A stretch of 6,367 bases of DNA, taken from the NCBI GenBank assembly GCA_016931365.1, contig JAFGEY010000526.1, positions 1 to 6,367 on the forward strand. Reading direction: 5' to 3'. This document shows, one piece after another, positions 1 through 6,367 of this stretch. Made by a program: the position numbers and the translations under genes. The notes under the pieces are model-generated. The model saw only the letters and a program-made list of their open reading frames with translations, was not told the origin of the DNA and did no database searches. Source of the stretch: Anaerolineae bacterium (GTDB lineage: Bacteria; Chloroflexota; Anaerolineae; JAFGEY01). Numbering within the stretch: the first letter of the stretch is position 1; each line of letters begins with the position of its first letter.

Positions 1-124
1 CCAGGCTCAAGTGCAGCAGATGCACCTCGGCGCCGGCTGCGGCCTCCTTGAGCAGCACTCCGCCGCAGGCAATCTCCATGTCGCCGGCGTGCGCGCCAAC
101 GGCCAGAATCGTCTTTTTATCCAT
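1..124 (-). CDS. PIG-L/LmbE-family deacetylase, N-terminal part only
   Basis: Only the first 41 codons lie in the window; the gene runs off the low-coordinate edge. The start is ATG at 124-122, with a strong Shine-Dalgarno (AAGGAGGT, 138-131) six bases upstream. The peptide begins MDKKTILAVGAHAGDMEI and continues ACGGVLLKEAAAGAEV. This matches the N-terminal beta-strand, zinc-binding motif and following helix of PIG-L/LmbE deacetylases, which remove N-acetyl groups from sugar conjugates (GlcNAc-PI, mycothiol and bacillithiol precursors). The usual motif is AHPDDxE. Here it is AHAGDME: the His and the zinc-binding Asp are kept, but the position of the Asp that acts as general base in MshB-type enzymes is Gly. 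The start codon lies two bases after the GNAT stop, so the two genes are probably translationally coupled. Family assignment is fairly secure; the substrate cannot be stated from this fragment. Confidence 0.8.
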   Translation of the reverse strand, partial: MDKKTILAVGAHAGDMEIACGGVLLKEAAAGAEVHLLHLSL

Positions 125-126
125 CT

Positions 127-1074
127 TTACACCTCCTTGTGCAAAATAGCGAATTTGCGGCTCTCCCGAAAGCCAAAGCGCGCGTACAGGCGCGCCGCGT
201 CGCCGCCCGTCCACAGCACCCACGCGCTGTGCTGGCCGTCCTGGGCCATCGATTGCAGGGCGCGCGCCAGCAGCAGCGTGCCGATCCCCTGCCCCTGGAA
301 TCCTTCGGCGACGCCGAACGGCCCGAAATGCGCGCCCTCGTACTGGCAATAGCCGATCACCCACTCGCCGGAGACGGCCAACAAAAACTGGCCCGGCCTA
401 AACGCCCCGTCGTGGATGCGGGCCAGGTTGCGCAGAGCCAGCCACTCCCAATCCCAGGGCAAAGCGTCGCGCAGGAAGTGGCAAAAGGGGATCAACCAAC
501 GGGAACTGTAGGCCAGAATCGCAACGCCCTGTTGGGCCAACCGGCGCTCGCGCTCGTCCAGATCGGGCGGAAAGCACGGCGGCCACAAGGATGCGTCCAT
601 GGCGATGGCGTGCGAGGTCACCTGATAGCCTTGAGATTGGAAAAAGGCCAGCCCGCCGGGGTAAGCCGCCTCGTCGACGCCGGGGACGAGGTAGGCGGTG
701 GGATAGGTGGCGATCCACAGGTCGCGCTTTCCCGCCTGACCCAATCGCGCCTCCAACGCTTCGAGCAGCGCCGCGCCGACGCCCTGTCGCCGGAACGGCG
801 TATCGACGGCCAGGGCCAGAATCCAGGCGCGCGCGCCTTCCGGCCGGGAAGGAAAGTGAAATCCCTCACCGGCCATGCCCAGCGCCAAGCCGGCCATCTG
901 CCCAGCGATCCGGGCGACCAGGAAGAATTCGGCGCGAAAATTGGGGTCGAGCAGCACCTGGGCCTCCAGGCGTGCAGGGGAAATCAGGTCGGCGGTGAGG
1001 CAGCGATTCCACACCCGAACGAGTTCGGGCAAATCCGGGCTGTTCATTTGTTCCAGGTCCGTTTTGCGGGTCAT
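127..1074 (-). CDS. Tandem-GNAT-domain N-acetyltransferase
   Basis: This encodes 315 residues starting MTRKTDLEQM. The protein has two GNAT folds that would transfer an acetyl group from acetyl-CoA to an unknown amine. The acetyl-CoA pyrophosphate-binding motif A appears twice: RRQGVGA at residues 95-101, after strand AWILALAVD, and QGQGIGT at 260-266, after FGPFGVAEG. The second domain ends with the usual LYARFGF motif near 297-302. A two-domain GNAT of about 300 residues is a common bacterial arrangement. The ATG at 1074 is chosen because AGGAG lies six bases upstream. An in-frame ATG at 1113 would add 13 residues, but it falls inside the 111-bp repeat and has no comparable ribosome site. 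The stop is two bases before the PIG-L start, so the two form a gene pair. Nothing ties the pair functionally to the retroelement. The substrate is unknown; the two-domain layout resembles mycothiol synthase MshD, but that alone does not show MshD function. Confidence 0.88.
   Translation of the reverse strand: MTRKTDLEQMNSPDLPELVRVWNRCLTADLISPARLEAQVLLDPNFRAEFFLVARIAGQMAGLALGMAGEGFHFPSRPEGARAWILALAVDTPFRRQGVGAALLEALEARLGQAGKRDLWIATYPTAYLVPGVDEAAYPGGLAFFQSQGYQVTSHAIAMDASLWPPCFPPDLDERERRLAQQGVAILAYSSRWLIPFCHFLRDALPWDWEWLALRNLARIHDGAFRPGQFLLAVSGEWVIGYCQYEGAHFGPFGVAEGFQGQGIGTLLLARALQSMAQDGQHSAWVLWTGGDAARLYARFGFRESRKFAILHKEV
131..138 (-). promoter_or_regulatory. Ribosome binding site of the PIG-L gene
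   Basis: AAGGAGGT on the minus strand is a near-perfect anti-16S match, six bases before ATG 124-122. It lies inside the last codons of the GNAT gene, which supports coupling of the two genes and fixes the PIG-L start. Confidence 0.8.
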
Positions 1075-1080
1075 CGTTTG

Positions 1081-1085
1081 CTCCT
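1081..1085 (-). promoter_or_regulatory. Ribosome binding site of the GNAT gene
   Basis: AGGAG on the minus strand ends six bases before ATG 1074-1072. It decides between this start and an upstream in-frame ATG at 1113 that lies in repeat DNA. Confidence 0.7.
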
Positions 1086-1417
1086 GTGCATACCATAGGT
1101 AGGGGCGAAGCATCCCCTGTACATCGTTCGTTGACCAGGATGCTCGGACAGCAGGGCCAGGTTCAACCGGCAGGCTCCGTCTTGGGATGATTCGCTGTGC
1201 ATATTATGGGTAGGGGCGAAGCATCCCCTGTACATGGTCCGTTGACCAGGATGCTCGGGCAGCAGAGCCAGGTTCAACCAGCAGATTCCGTCTGGGGATG
1301 CTTCGCTGTGCATAGCATGGGTAGGGGCGAAGCATCCCCTGTACATGGTCCGTTGACCAGGATGCTCGGACAACAGAGCCAGGTTCAACCAGCAGGTTCC
1401 GTCTGGGGATGCTTCGC
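1085..1417. repeat. Three tandem copies of a 111-bp repeat
   Basis: Units are 1085-1195, 1196-1306 and 1307-1417, each starting TGTGCATA and ending at or near GGGGATGCTTCGC. By hand alignment units 2 and 3 differ at about 5 of 111 positions, and units 1 and 3 at about 10, with no indels seen. The end of each unit (GGGGATGCTTCGC) is the reverse complement of a stretch near the start of the next (GCGAAGCATCCCC). Each junction can therefore form a stem, for example 1294-1306 with 1327-1339 around a 20-base loop. The period is a multiple of three, so both strands stay open across the array, but nothing else suggests coding. With the flank at 1418-1599, this fills the gene-free stretch between the GNAT gene and the TR. 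Function is unknown; the array abuts the GNAT ribosome site and could affect that gene's expression. Confidence 0.9.
1294..1339. repeat. Inverted repeat at a tandem-repeat junction
   Basis: A perfect 13-bp inverted repeat has arms at 1294-1306 (GGGGATGCTTCGC) and 1327-1339 (GCGAAGCATCCCC) around 20 bases. A degenerate version occurs one period earlier, with left arm 1183-1195 and two mismatches. A left arm also closes the array at 1405-1417, without a following partner. Confidence 0.8.
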
Positions 1418-1433
1418 CCTTACAGTGGCCGGC

Positions 1434-1475
1434 GCCCGCCTCAGCCCGGCCACAAGGGCCGGACAGGAGGCGGGC
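1434..1475. other. Strong GC-rich stem-loop downstream of the TR
   Basis: The outer arms 1434-1442 (GCCCGCCTC) and 1467-1475 (GAGGCGGGC) pair over 9 bp. Inner arms 1446-1451 (CCGGCC) and 1457-1462 (GGCCGG) pair over 6 bp around a 5-base loop. A second inverted repeat lies beside it: GCGAGTT 1492-1498 with AACTCGC 1511-1517. On the minus strand both follow the TR, so they could end or shape the TR-containing transcript. No U-tract follows, so a classic intrinsic terminator is not supported. Apart from these stems I see nothing recognisable in 1418-1599. Confidence 0.55.
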
Positions 1476-1599
1476 CTGGCCTATTCGCCTCGCGAGTTCG
1501 CGCTTGGGCAAACTCGCAAGCCAGGGACAGGCTGCGCCAGCTTCAAGTCCTCGGCCGGGAAGGGCCCATTCCCCGCCCGGCATTTCCGGAAACCGCCAG

Positions 1600-1726
1600 G
1601 CTGTGAGAAACCATCACAATCCGAAACCCGATGTTGTTGTTCCTGTTGTTGGGATTGTTCCTGTTGCGCGCCGAGCACCGCACGTTATTGTTGTTATTGT
1701 TGAACGCCCCACCACGCAACACGCGG
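1600..1726 (-). repeat. DGR template repeat (TR)
   Basis: This 127-bp segment aligns without gaps to 3421-3547, the 3' end of the NACHT-FGE gene, at an offset of 1821. On the coding strand the core (1726-1605) has 33 adenines. Fourteen of them differ in the VR (10 A to G, 3 A to T, 1 A to C), while none of the 89 other bases differs. One further A (1604) is C in the VR, just past the 3' edge of the core. Read in the VR frame the TR gives GGAFNNNNNNVRCSARN, then RNNPNNRNNNIGF: 14 Asn codons (11 AAC, 3 AAT) set in adenine-poor scaffold codons. It lies 39 bp after the avd stop on the same strand and would be transcribed as part of the DGR RNA. It is the unmutated master copy; its own reading frame is not expected to be a gene. 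Confidence 0.97.
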
Positions 1727-1765
1727 TCTCTTTCCAGCCTGCCCCCACAACATACCACGCCCCGA

Positions 1766-2158
1766 TCAGGTCGTTCTGACTTGAGAGGTTGCGGCGGGTT
1801 GTCTTTTGATTTGCCCCACAGCCTCGGCCGTGTTCTGTTTCCACGTCCCCAACAGCCGGCCGACCTCGGCCACCAGGCGCGCGCCGTGGCCGTACTGGCC
1901 TTCATCGATCCACTGCCAGCGGAAGGCCAGGCGCAGGTAGAGCCGCACCTTGTCCAGTTCGGCGTCGGCCAGATCGAGCCTGGCCAGGCGGGCCTTGCCG
2001 CGCTCGCTGTTGGCCTCGACCAGCCGTTCTTGAAAGTCGAGGGCGGCATCGAGTAGCCGTTTGGTGACGATGAAGCGCTGGCTACGCGGAAAGTGATTGG
2101 TGACCGCCAGCAGCCAGTTGGTCAGATCGAACGTCTTGGTGAACAAAGGCGTGGTCAA
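1766..2158 (-). CDS. avd: Avd-like DGR accessory protein (four-helix bundle)
   Basis: This encodes 130 residues beginning MTTPLFTKTFDLTNWLLAVT. Avd proteins form a basic pentameric barrel of four-helix subunits that binds the DGR RT and template RNA and is needed for mutagenic cDNA synthesis. The match to the Bordetella phage Avd C-terminal half is visible by eye: VRLYLRLAFR (71-80) and RLVAEVGRLLGTW (94-106) correspond to its LRFWLRFLAG and IAEVGRILGSW segments. The length is close to the 128 of that protein. Many Arg and Lys residues across the central helices fit nucleic-acid binding. The start is TTG at 2158-2156, overlapping the RT stop (TTGA) with AGGAGG six bases upstream, so translation is coupled to the RT. 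The TR begins 39 bp after its stop. Position and sequence make this assignment firm. Confidence 0.92.
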   Translation of the reverse strand: MTTPLFTKTFDLTNWLLAVTNHFPRSQRFIVTKRLLDAALDFQERLVEANSERGKARLARLDLADAELDKVRLYLRLAFRWQWIDEGQYGHGARLVAEVGRLLGTWKQNTAEAVGQIKRQPAATSQVRTT

Positions 2159-3258
2159 GGATGGCCTCCTCTTGGTAACAGACGCACGCTGCCGAACATC
2201 GCCCGGCGCAGGCTCAGCGTGTCGCCGTAGCGGGCGTGATTGGCCCAGCCGCGCGCCGAAGCGGTGACCTGCTCCAGCGTCACCTGACCCTGGGCATATT
2301 GCCGGGCCAGCCCGCGCAGCTTGCGCCCGTAGGCCACGCCCTTGCGCCGCTTGAGCCGCCGTTTGTGCGGATAGATCACAAAGCCCAGGAACGGGATGCC
2401 TTCGGTGCAGGGACGCACCTGGGCGCTTTGTTCATGAATGGTCAGCCGCAGGCGGGCCATCCGCTCGATGACCGCTTGCCGCCAGGCCCACAACTGCGCC
2501 TTGTCGTCGCCAAAGAGCAGCAGGTCGTCCACATAGCGCAGGTAGCCGGCGCAGCGCAGCTCGCGCTTGACAAAATGGTCGAATGCGTTGAGATAGCAGT
2601 TGGCCCAGAACTGGCTGGTCAGGTTGCCGATGGGCAGCCCGCGCGGGCGGCTGGCGGCCCAAAGCCCCTGCCCTGAGCGCGAACCGGAGGTTCGAGTCGA
2701 AGGGTCGTCCTGGGGAAAATAGACCATCTCGTATTCCTCGCTCAGCACGCCCACCCCGCTCTCCAGGATGCGGTCGATCAGCCACAGCGTAGCGGCGTCG
2801 CTGACCTTGCGGGCCAGCGCGCAGCGCAAGAGTGCGTGATCGATGGAAGGAAAAAATTGCCGCACGTCGCAGGGCAGCACATAGCGGTAGCGGCGGGCGA
2901 AATACTGCGCCCGCGCCAGCGCGCGGTGGGTGCCCTTACCCACCCGGTTGGCATAGCTATCATAGATGAATGACCGTTCCAAGATCGGTTCGATGATGTT
3001 GCACAGCGCGTGGTGCACCACCCGATCGCGGAACGGCGCGGCCGAGATCAGCCGGCGCTTGGGTTCGTGAATATAAAAGCTGTTGTAATGGCCTGGTTGG
3101 TAAGTCTTGGCCGCCAGCTCCTCTTGCAGCGCGATCAGGTTGTCTTCCAGGCGGTATTCAAAGCGCGCCGCCGGCTCTTTGTTTCTTTTTCCTTTGCTCG
3201 CTTTGCGATGCGCCAGCAGCAGGTTGGACCAGTCGTACACCTGCTCGTAGAGGGTCAC
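2155..3258 (-). CDS. Diversity-generating retroelement reverse transcriptase
   Basis: This encodes 367 residues, the usual size for DGR RTs. It would copy the TR RNA into cDNA with errors at template adenines. Visible RT motifs include a catalytic Asp in LPCDVRQFFPSID (D131), the DGR-specific motif 4 GLPIGNLTSQ (207-216, SQ in place of the SP of retroviral and group II intron RTs), and the active-site YVDD at 242-245. LGFVIYPHKRRLKRR (291-305) follows as the downstream RT motif and basic region. The N-terminus (LYEQVYDWSNLLLAHRKA) is typical of DGR RTs. The start is GTG 3258-3256, with GGGAGGT five bases upstream. Residues 186-198 (PSTRTSGSRSGQG) appear to be an in-frame palindromic-element insertion between motifs 3 and 4, where related RTs usually run directly from a DD pair into L..RPRGLPIGN. 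The catalytic residues are intact, so the enzyme is probably active. avd follows with a 4-base overlap. Confidence 0.97.
   Translation of the reverse strand: MTLYEQVYDWSNLLLAHRKASKGKRNKEPAARFEYRLEDNLIALQEELAAKTYQPGHYNSFYIHEPKRRLISAAPFRDRVVHHALCNIIEPILERSFIYDSYANRVGKGTHRALARAQYFARRYRYVLPCDVRQFFPSIDHALLRCALARKVSDAATLWLIDRILESGVGVLSEEYEMVYFPQDDPSTRTSGSRSGQGLWAASRPRGLPIGNLTSQFWANCYLNAFDHFVKRELRCAGYLRYVDDLLLFGDDKAQLWAWRQAVIERMARLRLTIHEQSAQVRPCTEGIPFLGFVIYPHKRRLKRRKGVAYGRKLRGLARQYAQGQVTLEQVTASARGWANHARYGDTLSLRRAMFGSVRLLPRGGHP
2165..2170 (-). promoter_or_regulatory. Ribosome binding site that fixes the TTG start of avd
   Basis: AGGAGG on the minus strand, within the last codons of the RT gene, is six bases from TTG 2158-2156. 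This spacing and the TTGA overlap with the RT stop favour the unusual TTG codon as the real start. Confidence 0.75.
2665..2703. repeat. 39-bp in-frame palindromic element inside the RT gene
   Basis: On the plus strand, TGCCCTGAGC (2670-2679) and TCGAAGGG (2697-2704) flank an inverted repeat, CGAACC/GGTTCG, at 2681-2686 and 2690-2695 with GGA between. The same flanking 10-mer and 8-mer recur inside the FGE domain at 3804-3823. In the RT it adds exactly 13 codons (PSTRTSGSRSGQG), without a frameshift, between D185 and L199. It is read in the same frame as the copy in the FGE domain (PST...SGQ). This looks like a small mobile or miniature palindromic element tolerated in a surface loop, similar in behaviour to the Rickettsia palindromic elements, although no relationship to them is claimed. 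Confidence 0.7.
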
Positions 3259-3263
3259 TCTAT

Positions 3264-3270
3264 ACCTCCC
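3264..3270 (-). promoter_or_regulatory. Ribosome binding site of the RT gene
   Basis: GGGAGGT on the minus strand lies five bases before GTG 3258-3256. It supports GTG as the RT start and shows that the RT is translated independently of the upstream NACHT-FGE gene, which ends about 145 bp earlier. Confidence 0.7.
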
Positions 3271-3289
3271 TCACAGTTTTCACGTCGCC

Positions 3290-3307
3290 GCCCCCGCGGA
3301 CGGGGGC
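3290..3307. other. Small GC stem-loop upstream of the RT
   Basis: A perfect 7-bp inverted repeat, GCCCCCG (3290-3296) and CGGGGGC (3301-3307), encloses a 4-base loop (TCCG on the coding strand). It lies about 115 bp beyond the VR and 30 bp before the RT start. It could be a transcript hairpin or a secondary structure tied to VR targeting; nothing more can be said. Confidence 0.5.
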
Positions 3308-3331
3308 TTGAGCAAACGAAGGATTTCAATC

Positions 3332-3360
3332 GTGGGAGAGGGGCTTCGCCCCTCTCCCAC
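3332..3360. other. 13-bp perfect hairpin after the VR
   Basis: Arms GTGGGAGAGGGGC (3332-3344) and GCCCCTCTCCCAC (3348-3360) are exact reverse complements separated by three bases. On the coding strand the loop is GAA closed by C-G, giving GCGAAGC at the tip, a sequence known to form an unusually stable DNA mini-hairpin. DGR targets often have a hairpin or cruciform just 3' of the VR that is needed for efficient retargeting. This one starts about 60 bp past the VR and 42 bp past the stop codon of the NACHT-FGE gene, and has no counterpart after the TR. No T-run follows on the coding strand, so it is not a standard terminator. A role in DGR targeting is an inference. Confidence 0.6.
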
Positions 3361-3370
3361 ACCCTCACCC

Positions 3371-3415
3371 CCAGAGTCCCAGAGAGCCAGAGTCCAGAGA
3401 AATCAGAGGCCAGAG
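3371..3415. repeat. CCAGAG hexamer cluster at the end of the NACHT-FGE gene
   Basis: CCAGAG occurs at 3371, 3379, 3387, 3394 and 3410, and TCAGAG at 3403, at spacings of 7 to 9 bases. The cluster spans the last codons and stop of the variable protein and lies between the VR and the hairpin at 3332-3360. It could be slippage-derived sequence. No function is evident. Confidence 0.5.
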
Positions 3416-6367
3416 CGGAAGCTGGGAGAAACCATCACAATCCGAAACCCGATGTAGCTGTTCCTGACGTCGGGATTGCTCCTGTAGCGCGCCGAGCACC
3501 GCACGCTACTGCGGTTATCGCCGAACGCCCCACCACGCAACACGCGGAGCACCTTGTCGCCGGCCGACTCGTCCTCGCGCCCGTCGCCCGGATCGTAAGG
3601 GTACTTGAAATCCGGTTTCTCCCAATCTTTGCCCCACAAACTGCGCGTCCACTCCCACACGTTGCCGCTCAAGTCGAGCACGCCGTAGGGACTGGCTCCA
3701 TCCGGGAACACGCCCACCGGCGTGGTGTCGCCCAGGCCCAGAGCAGCACAGTTGCAGCGGGTGGCCTCGAACGCATCGCCCCAGGGATACGCGCGCCTGT
3801 CTTGCCCTGAGCCTGTCGAAGGGCCCCGCGCTGCCTTTTCCCACTGCGCTTCGCTGGGCAGCGCAATTGACTTGCCGGTCACTTCTGAGAGCCAGCGGCA
3901 GTAGGCCAGCGCGTCGTGCCAGGTCACATAAACCACCGGGTGACTCAGCTCGCCTTTCGGTGGACGGCCATTTTCCCAACCGTTCGGCGGCAGGTGGCCG
4001 GCCGCCTCAACAAAGAGGCGATACTGGGCGTTGGTGATCGGCACGCGCGAGATATGAAAAGTAGGCAAGGAAACCTGATGTAAGGGCTTTTCATCGCTGC
4101 TGCCGGTCTCGCTGCCCATCCAGAACGGGCCGGCCGGGACTTCCACCCACTCCGGCTCGCCATAGGGCAGCGTCCAGTATTGGGTTCCACCGATACGCGA
4201 CAATGCTTCAGCAGCAGCAATGCGGCGGCGGGTTAGCTCTTGTACCGTCATACCTCGTTGAAGGCGCACCTGGATCGAGGCCAACCATCCCTTGGGCGGC
4301 GGCGTCTCCAGTTCCTCGCGCAGCCGCCGCTGCACCTCGGCCTCCAGGTCGCCCGCCACGCGGCTGCTGCCCACGTCGCGCAGGCACTCGGCGGCCAGCA
4401 CCAGGTTGTGATATGGCTCGGCCTCCTGCTTGCAGTCAGCAATCGCCCGGATCAGCCGGGTGGCCCGCTCGCGGCTTTGCATGCTCAAATGGCCGGCTTG
4501 CAGCAGGATGGCCTCGCGCCACCAGGCGTCGGCGCAGTGCCCCAACGTGTATTCCATGTAATCGTCGCGCGCGGCCACGGCCAACGCGGCCAGATATTCC
4601 TGAAAGGTCAGGTGCGAAAAGGCATAGACCCCTTCGCCGCGCCCCACCAGCAGCCCGGTGCGCTCTTCTACCACCTGCAAAAAGCGATCCACCGCCCTCC
4701 CGACCGCCCGCCAGTCTTTCAACTGCTCGTACAGCCGTTCGCCCACCAGCCGGCGCAGCACATCCAGCGAGATGTCCTTTTGCTGCCCTTCGTGCATCGT
4801 CAGCGCTATCTTCTGCAACAGCAGCCGCTTGTCGCCGGCGTCAAAGGGGCGATCGTCCAGAATGGCCACTTCTTGCACTCCGCGCGCTTCATCCCACTTG
4901 CCCAGCAACACGTCCACCGCCTCGGCGTACAGTTCAGCGCGCCGGTCGGGCAGCTTGACCCGATCGCGGTGCACCAGAGCGATCACCGTCAGCAGCAACG
5001 GGTTGATGGCCAGCTCGCGCACCCGCTCGTTGGCGGCGATGGATGCCAGGAGATGCTGTGTCTGGCGCTCGGCATAGACGACGGCGCCCTCGCCCGGCCC
5101 CACCTGCCCCACGGCCACGGCCAGATGCCAGTTGCGCAAAAATTGACCTATGTCCTCGTCGCTGAAATCGCGCACCGTAGTGGTGACATACTCTTCGCTC
5201 AGCCGCGCCGCACCGGCATAGCCGACGATACGGCTGCTGACCACATAACGACACTGGGGATAGGCGCGGGTAAATGCCTCAACCAGGCGGGCCACCCGCC
5301 GCCGCAAGTCGGGGTCAGCCACCTCGTCCAGGCCGTCCAGCAAAATCACCGCCTGGCCGGAGTGGAGATAAGAGTCGAAAAAGTCGGGCGGGAGAACGAT
5401 CCGCTCCCCCTTGAGCATCTCGCGATAGTGCTCCAGCAGCAGCGTATGTCCCTCGGTGCCGTCGTCGGCGGGACGGCGCGACTTGAGAAATGCGCCCAAC
5501 CGCCGCAAGGGGATAAGCATCGGCAGCCAGCCGCGCTCCGGCAAGCCCAGCCGCTCCTTGACCAACGCTGTCCCTTCGGCCAGATCGCGCGCATACAGCA
5601 AGGCCAGGTAGCGCAGCAGGGTCGTCTTGCCGCTGCCGGGGTCGCCCAACACAACCAGGCGGGGATGGGCCTCCAGCGCCTCGTTGACGCTGACGGTGAC
5701 GGTTTCGGTTTGCACGCGCGGCGACAGATCGTCGGCCTTGTAGCCCCGCTGCAGGTGCGCCTCGCCGGGCGCCAGGCCAGCCTCGGCGGACAGCCAGGCT
5801 TCTTCGGCCTGCACGGTGCGCTGGCGGGTGGCGCGCAGGGTGACATAGATTTGCTCCAACTCGATGCTGACCAGTTTGCCGCCGGAACGAATGCCTTGCA
5901 GTTGCAGGTAGCGGTTTTGGCCGATCAGGTGACGCAGATAATGAGCCAGAGGCGATTCGCCGTTCACTGCCGGGGTCTCCACCGGCGGTTCGCCGACAAT
6001 GACGGTGGCTCCTTGCCCGGCAATGATCACGTGGCCGCCCACGTTGCCCGCCACCGCCACACCAGGGCCGGTGTTGACCGCGCTGCCATCCTGCGCGATG
6101 ATGCCGCTGCCCCACAATTGGGCGTGCAGCGTTTGGCGTTTGTCTTTCAGCGGTGACAGCATGGCCTCAAACTGCTCGCTTGAAAATGCGTTCCGCAGCG
6201 GTTCCTGCGCCTCGATGGCCTGCTCCACCTGGCCCAGCTCCTCCAGCGCGGCAAAGCGGGCGGCGAGCTGGGCGATCTCGTCCGGCAGGCGATCCTGCAC
6301 CAGCGGGCGATACTCGGCCAGGTAGCCCTGTACCAGCGCCCACTGCTCGCCAACGATCCGTCGGGCG
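3403..6367 (-). CDS. NACHT (STAND) NTPase with C-terminal DGR-diversified FGE domain, 5' partial
   Basis: The frame is open to the window edge, so the true start is probably upstream; GTG 6300, used here for numbering, has no ribosome site. Order: a helical N-terminal region (about 1-62), a glycine-rich segment (64-103, GNVGGHVIIAG), then a NACHT NTPase with Walker A GDPGSGKTT (219-227), Walker B VILLDGLDE (318-326) and sensor-like YVVSSR (352-357). INPLLLTVIALVH (432-444) and FSHLTFQEYLAA (561-572) belong to the winged-helix region typical of NACHT proteins. A helical linker (about 573-715) leads to an FGE domain from WVEVPAGPFWMGS (718-730), through GVLDLSGNVWEWT (873-885), to LRGGAF and GFRIVMV. 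NACHT proteins oligomerise on ligand sensing and act in signalling, cell death or defence. Here the ligand-binding tip is the DGR target. The FGE catalytic Cys pair seems absent (only C935 near the expected site), so it is a binding scaffold rather than an enzyme. Residues 827-833 (PSTGSGQ) are an element-derived insertion. No effector is visible; it may lie upstream of the window. Confidence 0.93.
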   Translation of the reverse strand, partial: ARRIVGEQWALVQGYLAEYRPLVQDRLPDEIAQLAARFAALEELGQVEQAIEAQEPLRNAFSSEQFEAMLSPLKDKRQTLHAQLWGSGIIAQDGSAVNTGPGVAVAGNVGGHVIIAGQGATVIVGEPPVETPAVNGESPLAHYLRHLIGQNRYLQLQGIRSGGKLVSIELEQIYVTLRATRQRTVQAEEAWLSAEAGLAPGEAHLQRGYKADDLSPRVQTETVTVSVNEALEAHPRLVVLGDPGSGKTTLLRYLALLYARDLAEGTALVKERLGLPERGWLPMLIPLRRLGAFLKSRRPADDGTEGHTLLLEHYREMLKGERIVLPPDFFDSYLHSGQAVILLDGLDEVADPDLRRRVARLVEAFTRAYPQCRYVVSSRIVGYAGAARLSEEYVTTTVRDFSDEDIGQFLRNWHLAVAVGQVGPGEGAVVYAERQTQHLLASIAANERVRELAINPLLLTVIALVHRDRVKLPDRRAELYAEAVDVLLGKWDEARGVQEVAILDDRPFDAGDKRLLLQKIALTMHEGQQKDISLDVLRRLVGERLYEQLKDWRAVGRAVDRFLQVVEERTGLLVGRGEGVYAFSHLTFQEYLAALAVAARDDYMEYTLGHCADAWWREAILLQAGHLSMQSRERATRLIRAIADCKQEAEPYHNLVLAAECLRDVGSSRVAGDLEAEVQRRLREELETPPPKGWLASIQVRLQRGMTVQELTRRRIAAAEALSRIGGTQYWTLPYGEPEWVEVPAGPFWMGSETGSSDEKPLHQVSLPTFHISRVPITNAQYRLFVEAAGHLPPNGWENGRPPKGELSHPVVYVTWHDALAYCRWLSEVTGKSIALPSEAQWEKAARGPSTGSGQDRRAYPWGDAFEATRCNCAALGLGDTTPVGVFPDGASPYGVLDLSGNVWEWTRSLWGKDWEKPDFKYPYDPGDGREDESAGDKVLRVLRGGAFGDNRSSVRCSARYRSNPDVRNSYIGFRIVMVSPSFRSGL
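3421..3547 (-). repeat. DGR variable repeat (VR) in the FGE domain
   Basis: This is the target copy of the TR at 1600-1726, with 15 substitutions, all at TR adenines. It encodes GGAFGDNRSSVRCSARYR, then SNPDVRNSYIGF, near the C-terminus. Of 14 Asn-templated positions 11 have changed: residues 927, 928, 930-932, 939, 941, 944, 945, 948 and 949 in numbering from GTG 6300. N929, N942 and N947 remain Asn. The 25-bp 5' block is adenine-free on the coding strand and so cannot vary. The 3' block 3426-3455 is identical in both copies and is the likely initiation-of-mutagenic-homology region. Five more matching bases with one A/C difference follow at 3421-3425. The VR ends 15 bp before the stop codon. 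Confidence 0.97.
3802..3823. repeat. Short palindromic element inside the FGE domain
   Basis: The plus strand reads TTGCCCTGAGC then CTG then TCGAAGGG. It shares the outer 10-mer and 8-mer with the longer copy in the RT (2670-2704) but lacks that copy's internal inverted repeat. It encodes PSTGSGQ (827-833) in the loop between EKAARG and RRAYPWGD, where FGE-family proteins usually have only a few residues. The frame is the same as in the RT copy. Confidence 0.65.

Follow-up and report, generated by a model that had tools for sequence, protein, structure and literature searches.

Does a gapless pair of direct repeats mark a retroelement that is still rewriting its target gene, and what tells its polymerase which RNA to copy and where to begin? 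These questions are raised by a 6,367-nucleotide (nt) stretch of DNA from an Anaerolineae bacterium (GenBank assembly GCA_016931365.1, contig JAFGEY010000526.1, positions 1 to 6,367; the whole stretch is called the window below). On its minus strand lies what is very probably, judged from its sequence, a diversity-generating retroelement (DGR) with uninterrupted genes for a reverse transcriptase (RT) and the accessory protein Avd. The 127-nt template repeat (TR) differs from the end of the target gene only at 15 template adenines, and for this reason the cassette likely rewrites the C-terminal tip of its target, a predicted defence-type sensor with NACHT and FGE domains. The cassette is a well-formed DGR of known class, and as a locus it is ordinary. 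What is new beyond the coordinates of an earlier sequence-only reading is a covariation-supported RNA element at 1434-1608, together with the RT-less units that were found with it.

The TR (1600-1726, minus strand) and the variable repeat (VR; 3421-3547, minus strand), which lies near the 3' end of the variable protein (VP) gene, are direct repeats that align in register and without gaps over 127 nt at 88% identity. All 15 mismatches fall on an adenine of the coding (minus) strand of the TR (10 A to G, 3 A to T, 2 A to C; a spectrum leaning toward G, on small numbers). This agrees with the sequence-only reading, which had placed one A to C change in the core and the other at the edge. Its statement that no other base had changed also stands (0/92), but its counts of 33 adenines and 89 non-adenines do not, as the full 127 nt hold 35 and 92; a shorter core was perhaps used. 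The probability that 15 of 15 mismatches would land by chance on 35 adenines among 127 positions is 2.8e-10. When read in the frame of VP, the TR has 20 of its adenines at codon position 1, 15 at position 2 and none elsewhere (35/35). It translates as RVLRGGAFNNNNNNVRCSARNRNNPNNRNNNIGFRIVMVS, with runs of Asn, and the VR as RVLRGGAFGDNRSSVRCSARYRSNPDVRNSYIGFRIVMVS. Chance similarity, an assembly chimera or plain gene duplication might come to mind for a repeat on a single 6.4-kb contig. Such origins are extremely improbable in view of the adenine pattern and of the recurrence of the same gene order, VP-RT-Avd-TR, in other genomes (e.g., loci L005, L013, L020 and L046 of a set of 80 relatives, which were obtained as genome loci from an RT alignment and screened for VP, RT, Avd and TR; with the window there are 81 sources).

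The RT gene (2155-3258, minus strand) encodes 367 amino acids in an uninterrupted frame with a YVDD motif. The protein matches RVT_1 (E 9e-16) and phrog_1423 (E 9.3e-120), which we infer to be the DGR RT family from its BPP-1-type relatives, and its best sequence match among solved structures is a reverse transcriptase (8ub7). The Avd gene (1766-2158, minus strand; 130 amino acids, TTG start) overlaps the RT gene by 4 nt, and its product exceeds the cut-offs of NF033474 from NCBIfam (85.4 bits, cut-off 80) and of bAvd (58.2, cut-off 40). The window therefore appears to combine an adenine-type TR/VR pair, a DGR-type RT, Avd and a putative structured spacer 3' of the TR. The adenine-only differences, the RT, Avd and a target gene with the VR at its end support the earlier assignment to the DGRs, and the claim that RT and Avd are intact holds in that both reading frames are uninterrupted.

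The cassette could nevertheless be a silent remnant that diversified its target in the past and has since lost the function of its RT, Avd or RNA. Two features would fit this, namely an in-frame repeat insert of 13 residues, PSTRTSGSRSGQG, between conserved motifs of the RT, and the weakness in the window of helix P0 (see below). On the other hand, the frames of RT, Avd and VP are all open, the lack of any change at the 92 non-adenine positions counts against long drift after a loss, and a similar insert is found at the same site in 15 of the 110 RT proteins showing the site by motif (window included; among 120 RT proteins listed). We regard a silent remnant as unlikely and prefer a DGR that probably rewrites its target. 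The short in-frame repeat, CCCTGAGC...GTCGAAGGG, gives PSTGSGQ-like peptides both in the RT (2671-2704) and in VP (3805-3823); an insert of the same kind of pattern in VP was seen only in the window among the 120 VP proteins listed. A phage origin of the cassette was considered and rejected. In a phage collection no RT relative reaches 60% identity (the highest value is 37% among the 20 of 148 records listed), those on viral contigs do not exceed 53% among the 80 retained, and of the 80 genome loci in the set, 70 have names read as Chloroflexota, including Aquidulcis and other names that we presume to belong to this phylum.

The VP gene (3403-6366, minus strand; 987 codons and a stop, with the 5' end cut at the contig edge) encodes a NACHT NTPase domain (residues 237-414, E 7.8e-11) and a C-terminal FGE-sulfatase/C-type-lectin-fold domain that contains the VR (residues 737-977, full-length match, E 5.7e-54); VP is, in other words, a STAND/NACHT NTPase fused to a VR-bearing C-type-lectin (CLec) domain. 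Residues 1-220 gave no Pfam match at E 0.01, in a protein whose gene runs off the contig. PADLOC returned weak partial matches only, and the EruA model scored 41.5 bits against a cut-off of 1000. The full-length FGE-sulfatase match might be taken to mean that the domain is an enzyme, with the DGR varying substrate choice and not ligand sensing. In a sequence alignment with human FGE (2aft, titled C336S mutant, the residue number being taken from this title), the VR aligns to the active-site segment. The position aligned to residue 336 is a VR residue other than cysteine, the segment that carries the next cysteine has no counterpart in the window, and the active-site cysteine pair of FGE was not found in VP. 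At the active-site position the TR has Asn codons, as do the TRs of relatives. An enzyme thus seems quite improbable, and since the VR sits on the active-site segment, the FGE domain is likely to act as a binding scaffold.

The predicted fold of VP resembles FGE-fold structures in its C-terminal part, and nothing further was gained from it. The AlphaFold model is mediocre (mean predicted local distance difference test score 68.8, predicted template modelling score 0.40) and the N-terminus of VP is missing from the contig, both of which count against the explanation proposed below. VP relatives have NACHT and FGE in common, and some add further Pfam accessions (e.g., PF04471, PF13271, PF13240 and PF01656, among the matches listed) that presumably represent exchangeable N-terminal modules. 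NACHT-homologous sequence is present in 46 and FGE-homologous sequence in 65 of the 80 relatives' loci, many of which are short contigs.

What marks the template for copying? The stretches behind the TR look alike in both main gene orders, window included. Among 38 TR-bearing sequences (again with the window), 35 had a linker motif and a terminal hairpin, P4, and were candidate seeds. Alignment A2 held 18 of the shorter TR-bearing sequences and excluded the window. Omission of L047 (long insert), L064 (MAFFT shift) and L049 and L072 (apparent outliers) gave alignment A3, with 14 relatives. From these 14, without the window, a model (R1) was drawn with five helices, of which P0 is formed by the TR end paired with the spacer. 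In the MAFFT alignment A3, 91.4% of cells are paired versus 72.1% in shuffles, the covariation score is 0.578 versus 0.203 when shuffled (0/500 shuffles reach it), and two-sided changes occur at 23 of 33 pairs, with none in helix P3. When the structure is slid by 1-3 columns the covariation falls to 0.100-0.167, a comparison in which the structure is favoured over the slid versions by having been derived from the same sequences. In L061, the P2 hairpin loop seems to carry sequence resembling the PSTGSGQ-type repeat.

In the window, R1 matches with 66 bits at the TR end (E 3.5e-21 alone, 4.5e-19 in 826 kb). The conserved element, modelled as a structured RNA and a putative DGR spacer (Sp), occupies 1434-1608 on the minus strand, with its start in the final 9 nt of the TR. 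It contains helices P0, P1, P2, P3 and P4. The 5' strand of P1 (UCC, 1588-1590) pairs with GGA at 1548-1550, according to the alignment to the model and with coordinates counted by hand on the sequence; the linker motif GGCGAATA lies between P3 and P4 at 1482-1489, and the G+C-rich hairpin P4 closes the element at 1434-1475, all on the minus strand. Matches at E <= 0.1 were obtained in 74 of the 81 sources; of the 67 that did not serve as seeds, 60 matched. R1 finds no RNA in 7 of the 80 loci (L022, L023, L042, L050, L075, L076, L079), and the best match in L059 spans only model positions 21-57. In the window, Rfam 15 searched with E values of up to 1 gave no match at the element and only two weak ones at other places, both under the gathering score; in the 8 of the 80 relatives that were searched, none reached the gathering score. 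No published description of the element turned up among the papers listed in a literature search whose coverage does not extend to the principal structural study of the RNA of BPP-1.

Several points count against the RNA model. The likeness of the window had been noticed by eye before the model was built, R1 gives no match at the BPP-1 spacer, and among 80 viral-contig loci it gave 6 weak matches only (13.7-24.7 bits), all upstream of the RT match. On the strength of these six the fold may be wider than the Chloroflexota. The weakly matching viral-contig loci are L093, L081, L086, L085, L102 and L089. We also considered that P0 might contain one conserved adenine used for priming, as column 110 of A3 looked constant; the idea was rejected when this did not hold over the wider set.

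Helix P0 bears on the point at which copying starts. Over the 49 non-seed loci, the window among them, a TR end and its own spacer pair with a mean of -9.13 kcal/mol, versus -7.15 kcal/mol for swapped partners (0/10000 permutations), and in the 14 seeds the values are -8.24 and -6.71 kcal/mol (94/10000). When the TR ends were set by TR/VR similarity, the values for 33 loci outside the seeds were -14.31 and -11.97 kcal/mol (0/10000). TR/VR similarity stops -3 to +8 nt from the start of P0 in 44 of 58 loci, as would be expected if copying begins just 5' of P0; in the window the model would put this start near TR position 1605. Other points tell against P0 as the priming stem. The segments of the first two pairing tests were placed by R1 itself, which favours cognate pairing; the third took only loci passing the -3 to +8 filter, and its segments overlap P1. 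In 14 of the 58 loci similarity ends away from P0, some of which look like cases of a misplaced P0 or a short alignment. In the window, P0 has two non-standard pairs, its -7.3 kcal/mol compares with a non-cognate mean of -7.15, and it ranks 32 of 44 in the similarity-end pairing test. Given this weakness of P0 in the window, we infer the priming stem there from the family only; it is supported in relatives.

The adenine pattern also holds across the family, in which 874 of 900 TR/VR mismatches in 58 loci are at TR adenines, under a scoring that tolerates mismatches at A more than others and hence favours them. In 44 filtered loci (window included; loci with TR/VR similarity stopping far away from the RNA stem were dropped), 708 of 1300 TR adenines are changed (286 to G, 137 to C, 285 to T), versus 18 of 3544 other bases. 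The 15th difference in the window (TR 1604, VR 3425) lies within the final 5 nt of the repeat, at the limit of similarity. Since the model places TR 1604 in or beside the priming stem, this difference may reflect ordinary divergence and not mutagenic copying.

The position of the RNA element relative to the RT gene varies. Among the 74 matches, 33 precede the RT, 37, including that of the window, follow it, and 4 are on the opposite strand. Of the 74 elements, 66 have an Avd match upstream of them on their own strand, at a median distance of 177 nt, and for 58 of the 74 the locus contains a VR partner of the stretch immediately upstream of the element. Besides other arrangements there are two main gene orders, VP-Avd-TR-RT and VP-RT-Avd-TR, the latter shared by the window with the four loci named above; in L002 the TR is upstream and Avd downstream of the RT, and a few other loci have parts on opposite strands. 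On an RT tree the two placements require at least 5 changes, and strongly supported branches of this quick tree force at least 2. DiGReF had reported TRs upstream, downstream and on another strand (PMC3521204, as excerpted). TR and RNA element look like a stable unit relative to which the RT gene moves. The element stays behind TR and Avd while the position of the RT shifts, and therefore the unit read by the RT is likely the TR plus the RNA element.

The conserved element behind the TR could also have nothing to do with priming and serve as a terminator or as a cis-regulatory leader. P4 is a G+C-rich hairpin, which in some relatives is followed by a T-run, but in the window there is no T-run directly behind it. 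Across the three placements the element stays with TR and Avd and not with the RT gene, P0 uses nucleotides of the TR, and TR/VR similarity mostly ends at P0. In BPP-1, moreover, a spacer at the same place folds and recruits bRT-Avd, with an internal adenine serving as primer (excerpted text of PMC12875486). A terminator or leader is therefore improbable, and a role of the element in template copying is preferred.

If TR and RNA form a unit, it might also occur away from an RT. A search of 12 whole genomes with R1, in which 150 first-look candidates per genome were scored, gave at least 26 places, i.e. the 12 starting loci, 2 already in the set (L007, L036) and 12 new ones. In 10 of the 12 new places a template-like, Asn-rich frame lies directly upstream (L162-L167, L169, L172, L174, L180), reading GLR instead of GFR in L164 and L165. 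At L175/L181 (L181 7790-8316) the RNA element stands beside an RT remnant of 76 residues, without a visible TR, and at L168, which has the weakest E-value of the new places (9e-4), no DGR part was seen. L180 has the TR-like frame and the RNA element, and no VP, RT or Avd was found in its 4.7 kb.

No RT and no Avd were found in L176 (19.5 kb) or L177 (a whole contig of 16.3 kb), where 11 of 12 and 9 of 10 TR/VR differences are at TR adenines; both share a genome with the RT of L013. L179 has Avd and no RT found in 14.3 kb, with 17 of 17 differences at TR adenines. In 19.9 kb of L178 neither RT nor Avd was found, and the locus looks decayed or mispaired, since only 14 of 22 differences are at adenines. 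We suggest that such RT-less units are acted upon in trans. Targets apparently diversified in trans, as well as degenerate loci, have been reported (Doré et al. 2024, PMC10907252, in the excerpted text). A broader proposal, for which we see the chances as even, is that TR and RNA together are a relocatable "ticket" that any RT-Avd fitting it could read, be it in cis or in trans, and that has moved repeatedly relative to the RT (the layout changes counted above), and that VP-TR-RNA satellites lacking RT and Avd let one RT diversify several scattered sensors.

Based on these results, diversification in the window might proceed as follows. The avd-TR-Sp region would be transcribed, and the element 3' of the TR, whose conservation and covariation are described above, would fold as RNA, bind RT-Avd and set the start of copying, in relatives with the TR 3' end paired to the spacer in P0, where TR/VR similarity mostly stops. 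To judge from the TR/VR pattern, the RT would then copy the TR and misincorporate opposite adenines, and the cDNA would replace the VR in the VP gene. New VP tips are predicted to change ligand binding by the FGE/C-type-lectin domain, and NACHT to relay the signal to an N-terminal effector beyond the end of the contig.

On the minus strand the cassette thus runs VP-RT-Avd-TR, followed by the RNA element. Downstream of it, window positions 2-1113 hold a GNAT acetyltransferase gene and then the start of a PIG-L-like gene, the latter under the Pfam cut-off. Just past the RNA element, at 1084-1417, are three tandem copies of a 111-bp unit, with 89% and 91% identity to the first copy.

An RNA that accompanies the template and has covariation support offers a handle for finding templates without relying on the RT, for predicting where copying starts, and for testing which targets one RT reaches in trans. 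The system closest to hand for comparison is the BPP-1 DGR (mtd-avd-TR-brt, AY029185), which shares with the window the adenine logic of TR and VR and an RT of 37% identity. As in the window, the spacer is 3' of the TR, and the TR lies directly 3' of a small gene, bbp7. We take bbp7 to be avd. A 7-nt complementarity between TR and spacer, with one G-U, can be seen by eye. Positions A56 and G117 of BPP-1 are reportedly given by Handa et al., and no conclusion here rests on them. Unlike the window, BPP-1 has its TR upstream of the RT, a phage tail protein as target, and a spacer not matched by R1. The RNA element of the window likely corresponds to this BPP-1 spacer, to which RT-Avd is recruited. 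In terms of the DiGReF groups (excerpted text of PMC3521204), the layout of the window is that of group 2, with the TR downstream of the RT, and 4 relatives fit group 4, in which TR and RT occupy different strands; that excerpt does not speak of a shared RNA element.

DGR-diversified NACHT-lectin proteins are already known. Doré et al. 2024 describe DGRs that diversify NACHT/STAND proteins with CLec domains, proposed as antigen sensors, still to be tested, and as adaptive sensing in bacteria (PMC10907252, in the excerpted text here and below). Their clade 5D DGRs (Thiohalocapsa PB-PSB1 DGR 3 and 6) resemble the window in a central NACHT, a C-terminal FGE-type CLec domain with the VR, and an N-terminal extension without a Pfam domain; they differ in that the host of the window is likely a member of the Chloroflexota, and an RNA element is not mentioned in the excerpt. 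The antiphage NTPases bNACHT and Avs, like VP, have a centrally placed NACHT NTPase, whereas the putative sensor of VP is a DGR-variable CLec domain.

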